A program made the translations under genes and the position numbers. Shown one piece after another: positions 11,463 to 15,777 of a stretch of DNA of 38,997 nt. Position 1 is the first letter of the stretch, and every line of letters starts with the position of its first letter. The notes beneath the pieces are model-generated. The model had not been told where the DNA came from, did no database searches, and saw only the letters and a program-made list of their open reading frames with translations. Location: the IMG/VR virus record IMGVR_UViG_3300032316_001127, positions 1 to 38,997 of that record. The stretch is one strand, 5' to 3'. This DNA is from a virus.

Positions 11463-11555
11463 ATGAAAAAGATTAAATCAATATTGAAAGAGATTTGGTT
11501 GGGATTTAAAATCTCGGAAGAAAATAAACATAAATCTCAATGGGGAAAGTTTTGA
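11463..11555 (+). CDS. Possible 30-residue micro-protein
   Basis: ATG to TGA gives MKKIKSILKEIWLGFKISEE followed by NKHKSQWGKF. It is basic and amphipathic and starts divergently from DUF192, with a start context (ACTATGAAAAA) like other genes here. It ends on the TTG of the first ncRNA promoter. Its length makes chance possible, so it is a low-confidence call. Confidence 0.35.
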   Translation: MKKIKSILKEIWLGFKISEENKHKSQWGKF

Positions 11556-11581
11556 TTTTTTAAAAATATTTTTTATCTTTG
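11552..11581 (+). promoter_or_regulatory. Host-type promoter P1 of the RNA locus
   Basis: TTG 11552-11554, 19-nt AT-rich spacer, TATCTTTG 11574-11581. Drives the first small structured RNA. Confidence 0.75.
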
Positions 11582-11586
11582 TAAAA

Positions 11587-11645
11587 CCTTTGGGGAATAA
11601 GGATATATTTATATAACTCGACCGAAAGGTCAACACCCCCAAAAC
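11587..11645 (+). ncRNA. Small structured RNA 1
   Basis: Begins 5-6 nt after promoter P1. TTTGGGG (11589-11595) pairs with CCCCAAA (11637-11643), closing a ~55-nt element. Inside is GACC-GAAA-GGTC (11620-11631), a GNRA-capped hairpin, and an AT-only stretch. There is no credible ORF. An A-tract and promoter P2 follow directly. No known RNA family recognised. Confidence 0.6.
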
Positions 11646-11662
11646 TCACAATAAAAAAAGAT

Positions 11663-11693
11663 TTGATAGAATGAGAATTCTTTCCTATCTTTG
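11663..11693 (+). promoter_or_regulatory. Host-type promoter P2 of the RNA locus
   Basis: TTG 11663-11665, 20 nt, TATCTTTG 11686-11693, preceded by an A-tract. Confidence 0.75.
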
Positions 11694-11698
11694 TGAAA

Positions 11699-11752
11699 CA
11701 AATCCCATGAGTGTGGAGTTTGAGAAAACTTCTTAATCTTGTGGGATTTTTT
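11699..11752 (+). ncRNA. Small structured RNA 2 (two-stem hairpin with T-run)
   Basis: AATCCCATGAG (11701-11711) pairs over 11 positions (with two G-T) with CTTGTGGGATT (11738-11748). The inner hairpin GGAGTTT-GAGA-AAACTTC (11715-11732) has a GNRA loop. Six T follow the 3' strand, so it could be a self-terminating ~50-nt RNA or an attenuator at the head of the tRNA transcript. Confidence 0.6.
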
Positions 11753-11759
11753 ATCAGAA

Positions 11760-11770
11760 GTTCTTTAACA
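11760..11770 (+). promoter_or_regulatory. boxA-like antitermination sequence 1
   Basis: GTTCTTTAACA is very close to the rrn boxA core of E. coli (GCTCTTTAACA), the NusB/S10 binding site used on untranslated rRNA transcripts. It stands between RNA 2 and the tRNA. Confidence 0.55.
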
Positions 11771-11780
11771 TTAAAATATT

Positions 11781-11848
11781 GATTACACCCGCTGGTACAA
11801 CCAGCGCATGACGTGGATAGGTGACCGTGGGGAAGTGGGAAGTAATCA
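11781..11848 (+). ncRNA. Structured element preceding the tRNA
   Basis: GATTAC (11781-11786) pairs with GTAATC (11842-11847), continued by CCC/GGG after a small internal loop. Inside is the perfect hairpin CGCTGG-TACAA-CCAGCG (11790-11805). It lies 13 nt before the tRNA. It has no T-arm and is not itself a tRNA. Confidence 0.5.
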
Positions 11849-11860
11849 TTTAAGATATAT

Positions 11861-11932
11861 CGTGGGATAGAGCAGTGGTAGCTCGGAAGGCTCATAACCT
11901 TTAGGTCGGTGGTTCGAATCCATCTCCCGCAA
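11861..11932 (+). tRNA. tRNA-Met (CAT), initiator-like
   Basis: A full cloverleaf can be drawn by hand. The acceptor is CGTGGGA/TCCCGCA, the D-stem GAGC/GCTC, the anticodon stem GAAGG/CCTTT with loop CTCATAA (anticodon CAT), and the T-arm GGTGG-TTCGAAT-CCATC. Positions 1 and 72 are C and A, unpaired, and the 11-24 pair is A-T; both are hallmarks of bacterial initiator tRNA. The anticodon stem keeps two of the three G-C pairs typical of initiators (A-T replaces 29-41). No CCA is encoded. Confidence 0.93.
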
Positions 11933-11974
11933 CAACGTGAATTAAATTTCACAAAAAAAAGTTTTATAAACTAT

Positions 11975-12005
11975 TTGATTAATTGAAAAGTTCTTCATAT
12001 CTTTG
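11975..12005 (+). promoter_or_regulatory. Host-type promoter P3 of the RNA locus
   Basis: TTG 11975-11977, 20 nt, TATCTTTG 11998-12005, preceded by an eight-A tract and GTTTTATAAA. Confidence 0.75.
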
Positions 12006-12008
12006 TAA

Positions 12009-12193
12009 AACAATTGGGAAAGGTTGACCATAGGTTCGTAAAATCGAGGTTTCCTCCCAAAACAAACTTTCAGGTAAAACTGATGGTTTCTTTGACAAAC
12101 AGACGAATTAGCCCGTCCTATTGAGAGTAGGGGGTCAACAAGATAGTTAGGTGATACTATCAAGGAAGAATGAATTCGTTAAAATCATCAGTC
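12009..12193 (+). ncRNA. Structured RNA 3 (~185 nt)
   Basis: The 5' part closes TTGGGA with TCCCAA (12013-12060). The 3' part has nested long-range stems: CTGATGGTTT (12080-12089) with AAATCATCAG (12182-12191), ten pairs including one G-T, and inside it ACGAATT (12103-12109) with AATTCGT (12173-12179). These enclose hairpins CCTA/TAGG and GATAGT/ACTATC. No credible ORF. Bounded by an A-tract and promoter P4. Confidence 0.6.
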
Positions 12194-12214
12194 AAAAAAA
12201 AGTTTCATAAAAAT

Positions 12215-12245
12215 TTGATAGTCTCAAAACTTTCATCTACCTTTG
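12215..12245 (+). promoter_or_regulatory. Host-type promoter P4 of the RNA locus
   Basis: TTG 12215-12217, 20 nt, TACCTTTG 12238-12245. Its flanks (A-tract, then TGAAACAAA downstream) match P2. Confidence 0.75.
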
Positions 12246-12251
12246 TGAAAC

Positions 12252-12306
12252 AAATGAAGGAGAGGGTTGAAATCCTACTTCGGTAAGGTCAGCTCCTCCT
12301 TCATTA
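12252..12306 (+). ncRNA. Small structured RNA 4
   Basis: AATGAAGGAG (12253-12262) pairs perfectly over 10 bp with CTCCTTCATT (12296-12305). The inner hairpin CCTAC-TTCG-GTAAGG has a UUCG tetraloop. It may be a separate small RNA or the 5' hairpin of the long transcript that follows, since no T-run closes it. Confidence 0.6.
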
Positions 12307-12317
12307 ATTTTGAATAC

Positions 12318-12329
12318 GTTCTTTGAATA
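12318..12329 (+). promoter_or_regulatory. boxA-like antitermination sequence 2
   Basis: GTTCTTTGAATA resembles Bacteroidetes rRNA-leader boxA sequences (GTTCTTTGACAT type, from memory) and stands right before the large structured RNA. Confidence 0.45.
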
Positions 12330-13243
12330 TAAAATATTTTCTTAAAATATGTTGATGATGAGACCTTCGGGTTGATTCTGAGACAAAGATAAAGAAATTG
12401 GGCGGTCTATAGTCCATAAAATAAACCATGAAAGTGGTATAAAGTGGTTCACTCTCGATTAGGGTGAGTTGCGGTTTCCGAAAGGGAACTCGAGTAGACA
12501 GGCAGGACATCATTGAGTCTTAAGTACCGAGGGTAACACTATAGGGAAAGTGATTTGATGACCGAGCGATGTGGGTCGTTTGGTTGAGGTGGGAACACCA
12601 ACAAGAGTAACCTGTAGAACTGTTGTGAGAAGTATAGTTATCCAACTATACAATTGCGGAGTTCAATATTAAAGTTAGCTTAAAACCGAAAGGTAAGAGT
12701 TCGTACAGGTGGTGCTGTTGTTCTCCTTACTCTTCACCTACCAAGGTAGGAGTTATGAAGTAGACTTGAAATATGGAGGTCGGGAGACTTCAAGGTGTAG
12801 TTCAGTATCGTCTCGTTCAAAAGATGGGATGACTGGTTTGACGGACCGCTACATCTATCATCCACAAATCAAACTTTTACTTTCAATGGTGAAAACTAAA
12901 AATCTAAAAGGAAAAGTGTTCGTCAGTCGTGGTAGACAGGTCACTACTTAGTCATGAGTTGTTCATGGCCGTAAAGGGTCCCAAACCCGATACGATTGTT
13001 TTGAAAGTTCTCTAATCCCGCAAGGATGAGTTTGGGTGGCAACCTAGAAGAGTGATGAGTAAGAATAGAGTATATTACGACTTTAGGATTGGTTAATCTA
13101 ATTGACCGTGACTGAGAGGTACTTCTCAAAAGGAAGTGGAAATCGGAGGAAATAAATAATCTCCTGTAAAGTCTCTCATTGAAAGGTGTATTCTCAACCT
13201 GAATGCCAACTAACCCTGACGTTTCTACGTCGGGGTTTTTTAT
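12330..13243 (+). ncRNA. Large ornate structured RNA (GOLLD/ROOL-like candidate or new class)
   Basis: About 900 nt without a credible gene but dense in hairpins: ACCAT-GAAA-GTGGT (12425-12438), GTTTCC-GAAA-GGGAAC (12474-12489), GGTG-GGAA-CACC (12588-12599), GTATAGTT-ATCC-AACTATAC (12632-12651), ACC-GAAA-GGT (12685-12694), CCTAC-CAAG-GTAGG nested in CTTCA/TGAAG (12732-12760), GAGGTC-GGGA-GACTTC (12776-12791) and GGTTAAT-CTA-ATTGACC (13091-13107). TGATGAGA (12356-12363) can pair with TCTCATTG (13174-13181) to close the whole. It is preceded by boxA and ends in a strong terminator. Size, GNRA richness, phage setting and tRNA nearby fit the GOLLD/ROOL type of large phage RNA, but I cannot match a consensus by eye. 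RNase P, tmRNA and group I/II intron signatures were not found. Confidence 0.7.
13213..13243 (+). terminator. Terminator of the large structured RNA
   Basis: CCCTGACG (13214-13221), loop TTTCTA, CGTCGGGG (13228-13235), then six T. Confidence 0.93.
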
Positions 13244-13296: not shown

Positions 13297-13836
13297 ATGT
13301 TCGACAAATTTATTGACCTTTTTGTAACTTTTATTCATGACATTCTTCCGTTCAAAATTGTAGACCAATGGGAAGAAGGGGTTCATTTAACTACTGGTAA
13401 GTTTAAAAGAATTGTGAAACCTGGATTAAATTTCAAGATTCCATTCTTTGACCAAATTATTACTACACCTGTCATTACTCAAACGGTAAACTTGAAACCA
13501 CAAACGGTTACATCTTTCGATGATAAGTCAATTGTATTGACCAGTATTGTTAGGTATCACATTCACGATGTTAAGAAGTTTTTATTAGGAGTAATGCATG
13601 CTAATGATGTACTTGTTGATACAACTCAAGGTGTTATTAGAGATATGGTTGAAAACACTATGTGGGAAGAATTGGTTGACTTAGGATTGATAGTTATGCC
13701 AGAAGTTAATGAACAAGTTTCCAAATGGGGTATTACAGTAGAACAGATTAGCTTTCCTGATTTAGGCGAAATAAAAACATACCGTCTAATTACGGACGGT
13801 GGAGATAGAAACCCAAGTCAACTAATTTTAGAATAA
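13297..13836 (+). CDS. SPFH/Band 7 (prohibitin-like) protein, short
   Basis: 179 residues. The ATG at 13297 is chosen because the promoter lies just upstream; an earlier in-frame ATG (13186) falls inside the ncRNA. A short N-terminal hydrophobic helix (FIDLFVTFIHDILPF) precedes VDQWEEGVHLTTGKFKRI and KPGLNFKIPFFDQI, typical of SPFH domains, then TQTVNLKPQTV and a helix-rich end. It is shorter than cellular prohibitins or HflK/C (over 270 residues), lacking the long C-terminal coiled coil. Such proteins form membrane-associated rings; a role in protecting against host protease or shaping the membrane is inference. Confidence 0.85.
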   Translation: MFDKFIDLFVTFIHDILPFKIVDQWEEGVHLTTGKFKRIVKPGLNFKIPFFDQIITTPVITQTVNLKPQTVTSFDDKSIVLTSIVRYHIHDVKKFLLGVMHANDVLVDTTQGVIRDMVENTMWEELVDLGLIVMPEVNEQVSKWGITVEQISFPDLGEIKTYRLITDGGDRNPSQLILE

Positions 13837-13891: not shown

Positions 13892-14812
13892 ATGACTGTA
13901 ATTTGGGTTGCTGAAGATATTAATAAAGACGGAACGTTCAAACAAACCAAGGCAGAAGTACTATGTACTCTGTCTTGTTTGTTATTTATTAAACATTACT
14001 ACCCTAACTTCAAGACAATATTCTTTGTCGACCAATACACTAAAAAATACTACGAACAGTTTGGATTCTTATCTTTATTTGATGAGATTAATGAAACTTT
14101 ATTAGATGAAGAGTGTGGGATTAATAAAACTGTTTATTGGGCTGCAGGTAAGATAATTGCTCAAAGGTCTATCGAAGGGCCAACATTAACTTTGGATTTA
14201 GATTTTAGGATATTCGATGACATTACAAAGTTTAATGTATTCGAATCGGATTTAAGTTGTTTATGGATGGAGGACATTAGAAATGAATTCTATATGACTC
14301 CACAATATGCGATGTCTTATACGTACTTAGATTGGAGATTACCGTGGGATTATAACGCTTTCAATACTTCATTTCTTTTCTTAAAAAATGAAAGTTTTAA
14401 GAATCTTTACTGTGACTTAGCTATTAGTTATATGAGGTCTAACTACAAAATATTACCTAATAACCTAAGTAAAGTTGAGAATAGTAAATTCATGATGTTC
14501 GTTGAACAATATATGTTAAGACAACTTTCAAAAGAACACAATCAAAAATGTAACCTCTTAATTGACAATTTTTGCCCAATTAATACTAACGATAATTTAG
14601 TTAAATCTATCGGGTTGAACTTAGAAAATTGTGGGCACCACTTTTATCATTATGGGGACCACAAAACAAATATGATTATTAAAGATAATTTTTGTATGAA
14701 TGAAATTGAACGATGTACTACTAAAACCAATAATGTTATTATTGATGAAATACAATTAAATGTTTTTAATAAACTTTCCAAACGAGATATAAATGAAGGG
14801 TGTTTTTGTTAA
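13892..14812 (+). CDS. Glycosyltransferase-like protein A (DxD-type)
   Basis: 306 residues. TLTLDLDFRIF carries an Asp-x-Asp-like LDLDF that in GT-A enzymes binds metal and sugar nucleotide; MTVIWVAEDIN at the start and WAAGKIIAQ before the DLD block match the layout of the following gene (FVNWTKPY, WTSGKSYCI, FMDLDFII). The two are clearly relatives. They resemble DUF6734-like GT-A proteins, a call from memory. Likely modifies host surface or virion glycans. The 3' end overlaps the next start by 20 nt. Confidence 0.6.
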   Translation: MTVIWVAEDINKDGTFKQTKAEVLCTLSCLLFIKHYYPNFKTIFFVDQYTKKYYEQFGFLSLFDEINETLLDEECGINKTVYWAAGKIIAQRSIEGPTLTLDLDFRIFDDITKFNVFESDLSCLWMEDIRNEFYMTPQYAMSYTYLDWRLPWDYNAFNTSFLFLKNESFKNLYCDLAISYMRSNYKILPNNLSKVENSKFMMFVEQYMLRQLSKEHNQKCNLLIDNFCPINTNDNLVKSIGLNLENCGHHFYHYGDHKTNMIIKDNFCMNEIERCTTKTNNVIIDEIQLNVFNKLSKRDINEGCFC

Positions 14813-15746
14813 TTGGACGAAACCGTACCAAGAGCGAGCTAGATTGAGAGGTCACGCATTTAAAATGCAAAGAGAACAAAAATCTGAAGAGTACATTACT
14901 ACTGATGAAGAGTTACTATTTACAATACTATCTGTCGGGTATTGGAGAGAGTTTAACGGAAAAACAAAATTATTTACAGACAGAGATGGATTAAAATATT
15001 ATGTTAAAAATAACATGGTAGACCTTTGGGATGAAATAGATACGAACACGTTGGAAAATTATAATGAGGTCGACGCTGCACAGTTTTGGACTTCAGGTAA
15101 ATCCTATTGTATTGGGATGGAACAGGGACCATTTTGTTTTATGGATTTAGATTTTATCATTCGTGAAAAATTACCTGAATGGGTGTTTCAATCTGATGTA
15201 ACAATACCATATTGGGAAATACCACGAGGGTATTACTATCCTAATGAGGAACAATATTCACAAATAAAACATTGGTCACCACCTTCAGACTATTCATATA
15301 AGATGATGATACCAAACACTTCGTTTTTATACATCAATAATCGCCAGGTTCAAAAAGAATATCTTAAAGACCATATAGAAGCCGTTGATACTAAAGATGA
15401 AATCCCTGAATGGTTTTGGTTGGTTACAGACCAAGGGTTATTTGGACAGGTTTTACGAAGATTCAATGCGAAAGTACAAACTTTAACAGATAAAGTATTC
15501 TTGGCAGACCATGAAGGGTATGACCCTAATGTTGGATTGGCCTGTGGGTATTATTACCAAATAGACCACGACAAAACTAAAGATAATTTAAATTGGTGGC
15601 ATGTGTGGACCAGGAAAGTATTGTATAATCTAAATGAAGAGGTTAGGATTAGTGACTGTAAAATGTTTTACCAAGAGATTGTAGAGAATTTGCCAAGATA
15701 TAAACACCTACTTAATAACCCAAGGTTAGAAAAATATAGGAACTAA
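14793..15746 (+). CDS. Glycosyltransferase-like protein B, paralogue of A
   Basis: 317 residues starting MKGVFVNWTKPYQERARLRG. It has FCFMDLDFII as the DxD-type site, and later MIPNTSFLYINN and TDQGLFGQVLRRF, parts seen in capsular-type GT-A folds. The arrangement parallels the upstream gene, indicating duplication with divergence. No signal peptide or membrane helix, so cytoplasmic. Acceptor and donor unknown. Confidence 0.6.
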   Translation: MKGVFVNWTKPYQERARLRGHAFKMQREQKSEEYITTDEELLFTILSVGYWREFNGKTKLFTDRDGLKYYVKNNMVDLWDEIDTNTLENYNEVDAAQFWTSGKSYCIGMEQGPFCFMDLDFIIREKLPEWVFQSDVTIPYWEIPRGYYYPNEEQYSQIKHWSPPSDYSYKMMIPNTSFLYINNRQVQKEYLKDHIEAVDTKDEIPEWFWLVTDQGLFGQVLRRFNAKVQTLTDKVFLADHEGYDPNVGLACGYYYQIDHDKTKDNLNWWHVWTRKVLYNLNEEVRISDCKMFYQEIVENLPRYKHLLNNPRLEKYRN

Positions 15747-15747
15747 T

Positions 15748-15777
15748 TTGTTTATTGGAGATAATTCACTATCTTTG
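15748..15777 (+). promoter_or_regulatory. Host-type promoter with palindromic leader
   Basis: TTG 15748-15750, 19 nt, TATCTTTG 15770-15777. The leader ends CGATAAAGATATG, so TATCTTT and AAAGATA form an inverted repeat around the start site. Nearly identical to the one at 19503. Confidence 0.75.

Follow-up and report, generated by a model that had tools for sequence, protein, structure and literature searches.

Among the closest described counterparts of the locus reported here is GOLLD RNA (Rfam RF02032), for which a 14-mer nanocage structure is known only for env-38 (PMC12286853). Our RNA is a member of this family, sits in a phage setting and adjoins a tRNA-Met, as in env-38 (PMC12286853). 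It differs in its upstream region, since the descriptions of known GOLLDs that we found mention neither promoters nor a boxA leader. Our literature search returned no paper joining GOLLD with an antitermination boxA (the four matches were chance ones, plant papers), and the literature found gives no account of bulk GOLLD production by phages. Abundant large non-coding RNAs have been reported for the phages ICP1 and K.

Bacterial rRNA leaders resemble the units of our locus in the order promoter, stem-loop, boxA, in the boxA sequence and in the Bacteroidota type of promoter, and the tRNA-boxA order that we find in large phages is like that of an rRNA operon spacer. The difference is that the phage unit drives a tRNA or GOLLD and not 16S-23S; no boxC was identified in the phage leaders. 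Phage use of boxA is familiar from the nut sites (boxA-boxB) of phage lambda. Here, in contrast, the promoter is of host type, the hairpin lies 5' of boxA, and a structural RNA is served rather than an mRNA; no phage N-like factor was identified in this comparison. Outside rRNA, boxA is also known from suhB and other boxA-regulated genes, where it represses or regulates mRNAs (PMC5725501), whereas the phage boxA leads stable RNAs.

The window analyzed here comprises all 38,997 nt of the IMG/VR record IMGVR_UViG_3300032316_001127. Our favored interpretation, to which we assign a probability of roughly 0.7, is that part of it forms a phage stable-RNA operon built from tandem rRNA-like leader cassettes (promoter, hairpin, boxA), which would provide processive transcription of untranslated RNA.

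Results

Four promoters on the + strand lie at 11552-11581 (P1, TTG-N19-TATCTTTG), 11663-11693 (P2), 11975-12005 (P3), and 12215-12245 (P4). They share the form TTG-N19/20-TA(T/C)CTTTG followed by TRAAAC, and thus fit the Bacteroidota primary-sigma promoter (TTG, ~19-20 nt, TAnnTTTG), a motif named as such in the literature. Within the 0.8 kb from 11531 to 12310, the pattern occurs four times on the + strand and never on the - strand, and 1,000 dinucleotide shuffles of this interval gave a mean of 0.023 sites and a maximum of 1. P2-P4 are direct repeats of 47 nt (74-77% identity) that sit before unrelated bodies. A preliminary description had proposed four tandem host-type promoters, duplicated without their RNA bodies, and both proposals hold. 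It was nevertheless incomplete, as it missed a fifth promoter (P5, 13244-13274, +), which drives a Band_7/SPFH gene (ATG at 13297, end at 13836), along with the tRNA-Met, the boxA sites and the GOLLD downstream.

The tRNA-Met(CAU) identified by ARAGORN at 11861-11933 (+) combines the CAU anticodon with the C1xA72 acceptor mismatch of an initiator tRNA-fMet. The three G-C pairs that an initiator has beside the anticodon loop are not present in the window tRNA, which has AGG/CCT at this position; relatives such as L041 and L066 have GGG/CCC. Between boxA and the tRNA lies a structured RNA body ("GCATGACGTGGATAGGTGAC", 11780-11848, +) with a conserved GCATGACnTGGATAGGTGAC. This body is an optional cassette, and in L015 and L016 boxA leads directly to the tRNA. 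The P3 structured RNA (12100-12181, +) has a conserved core, CCYGTCCNANTNNGAGTRGGRGGT, within an outer stem whose sequence varies freely among relatives while its pairing is maintained; P3 matches in L327 and L328 were discarded as chance matches in coding sequence. A search of the small RNAs against Rfam with lax thresholds returned tRNA and GOLLD only, and at least two families of structured RNA at this locus are new, each having a conserved core.

GOLLD itself occupies 12400-13243 (+, ~0.85 kb), an extent set by alignment to relatives, from a start at ~12400 to a terminator at 13212-13237. Its RF02032 3' domain (12793-13200) scored 326 bits against a gathering threshold of 150 and covered all 416 positions of the model (1-416). 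Given the tRNA-Met, GOLLD and terminator further on, the four-promoter stretch appears to form the 5' portion of a stable-RNA operon whose last member is GOLLD.

A stem-loop lies immediately 3' of each of P1-P4. Compared with shuffles, the folds gave z scores of -2.3 (P1), -4.5 (P2) and -5.5 (P4), with P3 weaker (-1.5). The P1 RNA (11587-11645, +) consists of a conserved GGATATATTTATAT element and a GAAA-loop hairpin in which 5 pairs show both-side changes among relatives. The P3 leader hairpin (12014-12060, +) contains a portable GGTTGAC..GTAAA..GGTTTCC motif; the motif GGTTGAC..GTAAAATCGAGGTTTCC, at 12021-12053 in the window, is found elsewhere within the P4 leader in L015 and after the tRNA in L016, L020, and L021. 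The P4 leader hairpin (12253-12305, +) has a UUCG loop in the window and a covarying stem, with 96% of cells paired and 7 of the 10 pairs showing compensatory substitutions on both sides, a result matched by no shuffle. Most phage units have leaders of 17-86 nt.

The P2 leader hairpin (11700-11755, +) is followed by T6 and is terminator- or attenuator-like. It may be an attenuator, in which case most P2 transcripts would end at the T6 hairpin and a regulated fraction would reach the tRNA. The ten-pair stem is indeed 99% paired, with few changes, and the T-run is retained in most relatives; against this, one lineage (L018, L023, L030, and L037) has replaced it with another leader that lacks this hairpin. 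Attenuation at P2 is possible, with the odds somewhat against it, and would be compatible with an rRNA-like cassette reading of the other units.

The preliminary description went further and took the compact stem-loop RNAs as products, such that each promoter would make its own short autonomous small RNA ending at or near the hairpin. The stems are indeed real, with pairing retained among relatives (P1, P2, and P4). In addition, the P1 unit includes neither a larger body nor a boxA, and the P2 hairpin ends in T6, so these two units could still yield short RNAs. For P4, however, the hairpin as the main product is rejected, since one clade (L024, L027, L035, and L064) lacks it and retains promoter, boxA, and GOLLD, with a promoter-to-boxA gap of only 17-22 nt. 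Neither P1, P3, nor P4 has a hairpin with a terminator tail, the sole scored + strand terminator being the one after GOLLD, and boxA lies downstream of the hairpin in the same transcript. The stem-loops are therefore mostly 5' leaders and not products, and we consider it unlikely that the array encodes a set of autonomous small RNAs.

What joins leader to RNA in the P2, P3, and P4 units is a boxA-type element, GTTCTTTRA. The P2/tRNA unit matches the published consensus GYTCTTTAANA (PMC5725501) exactly (GTTCTTTAACA, 11760-11770, +), and the element before GOLLD (GTTCTTTGAAT, 12318-12328, +) has the host-type GTTCTTTGA; both are near the 5' end of the nascent RNA, as is typical of boxA. The boxA-like element of the P3 unit (GTTTCTTTGACA, 12086-12097, +) is imperfect, being one base off.

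The loci of relatives were retrieved by GOLLD patterns or by the neighboring SPFH protein, not by boxA, and the element is conserved and enriched in them beyond chance. Exact GTTCTTTGA occurs 20-116 nt 5' of GOLLD in 33 of 33 clusters, against a background of 4 forward and 13 reverse GTTCTTTRA sites across 273 kb of these contigs. In an unbiased count over a wider set of 57 non-redundant clusters, GTTCTTTGA ranks first among the 9-mers 5' of GOLLD (49 of 57), and the 7-mer GTTCTTT is present in 56 of the 57, with varying flanking bases. Similarly, boxA follows within 190 nt of 91 of the 127 array promoters versus 2 of the 94 promoters lying more than 3 kb away in these phages. In 12 of 18 clusters, boxA precedes the tRNA-side RNA; some of these copies are GCTCTTTAA variants, consistent with the Y in GYTCTTTAANA. 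The tRNA-side boxA is degraded in some relatives (GTTCTTAAA). An exact GYTCTTTRA precedes the P3 RNA in 20 of 27 related clusters (chance matches excluded).

In the large phages L009, L041, and L073, the order is tRNA-Met, boxA, GOLLD. Not every GOLLD carries the leader: boxA and P1-P4-type promoters are both absent from the GOLLDs of Lactobacillales-type tRNA arrays (L266 and L273) and from L331, and L010 has no boxA leader either. In L331 (749-2010), GOLLD directly follows a tmRNA gene; the contig is from a bacterial genome assembly. A BLAST search with the Lactobacillales-type GOLLD returned tRNA-Ser matches only.

GTTCTTTRA, strictly conserved as it is, could alternatively serve the structure, processing, or assembly of the RNAs instead of antitermination, and the boxA-dependent complex of rRNA does act in 30S biogenesis as well (PMC10250234, PMC4807359). 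Such a role is quite improbable here, because the same element precedes three unrelated bodies and host rRNA, its distance to GOLLD varies over the range given above, and its flanks are unconserved. That the promoter and boxA likeness is merely inherited among close relatives and functionless deserves hardly any credence: the relatives compared do have common ancestry, and all loci share it in GOLLD, but the likeness outlasts the divergence of the GOLLD 5' sequence, leader, and hairpin, and the 9-mer is invariant while its flanks drift.

The idea that the units behave as cassettes, which was to be checked by aligning relatives, is borne out by L037, where leader and body have recombined. Its leader is 96% identical to that of L030 and 56% to that of L028, whereas its body is 100% identical to that of L028 and 75% to that of L030; the join lies at boxA. 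The swappable part of the unit is the leader.

With the aim of comparing these signals with host rRNA, we retrieved 93 Bacteroidota 16S leaders by a 16S pattern and scanned them within 300 nt. GTTCTTTRA was found in 28 and GTTCATTRA in 35 (63 of 93 in total), compared with 9 sites in 396 kb of control sequence; about a third of the leaders have no exact boxA match. Most of the 93 also have the TAnnTTTG promoter form. In the 16S-23S spacer of L126 (1948-2181), GTTCTTTGACATATTG directly follows tRNA-Ala, an order resembling the tRNA-boxA-GOLLD order of the large phages. The promoter and boxA signals, on which this assignment is based, indicate that the phage probably infects Bacteroidota.

Discussion

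The boxA tag in most units suggests that the phage uses host rRNA machinery for untranslated RNAs. The sequence itself and its comparison with relatives establish the anatomy of the unit, its conservation, and recombination at boxA. According to the operon model that we favor, each of the P2, P3, and P4 units would open with a strong promoter of host type and a short leader, in most cases a stem-loop, and continue with boxA and a stable RNA, the presumed products being the structured RNA and tRNA-Met (P2), the P3 RNA (P3), and GOLLD (P4); P1 would yield a small hairpin RNA that lacks boxA. Within the nascent transcript, boxA is predicted to recruit host NusB-S10 together with the remaining Nus factors to RNA polymerase, as it does in rRNA operons, which would render transcription resistant to Rho. 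Antitermination of this kind may favor complete transcription, folding, and high-level production of the tRNA and of GOLLD, which is untranslated and ~0.85 kb long. We infer NusB-S10 binding and Rho resistance at the phage boxA by analogy with the role of boxA in rRNA (PMC4807359, PMC5725501). At P2, the T6 hairpin is upstream of boxA, and termination could occur before boxA is synthesized.

If the operon model is correct, phages copy the start of an rRNA operon as a reusable cassette, and the rRNA-type leader would link GOLLD to the translation-linked Nus pathway. Mature GOLLD might even retain boxA and act as a multivalent decoy for host NusB-S10, a conjecture that we rate as highly improbable. 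Were it true, the many boxA copies per GOLLD assembly would titrate NusB-S10 and lower host rRNA synthesis during phage RNA production.

Other features of the window were observed in the course of this analysis. A second promoter family, TATCTTTGTA(T/C)TCACAAAA, is found at 15748, 19503, and 20871, with downstream sequence common to its members, and recurs in the relatives L016, L017, and L022. Two adjoining ORFs at 13892-15746 both match DUF6734 near the cut-off and are perhaps a tandem duplication. Finally, 35145-35990 matches a beta-keto acid cleavage enzyme (BKACE) with a score of 204 bits, a possible metabolic gene in a phage record.
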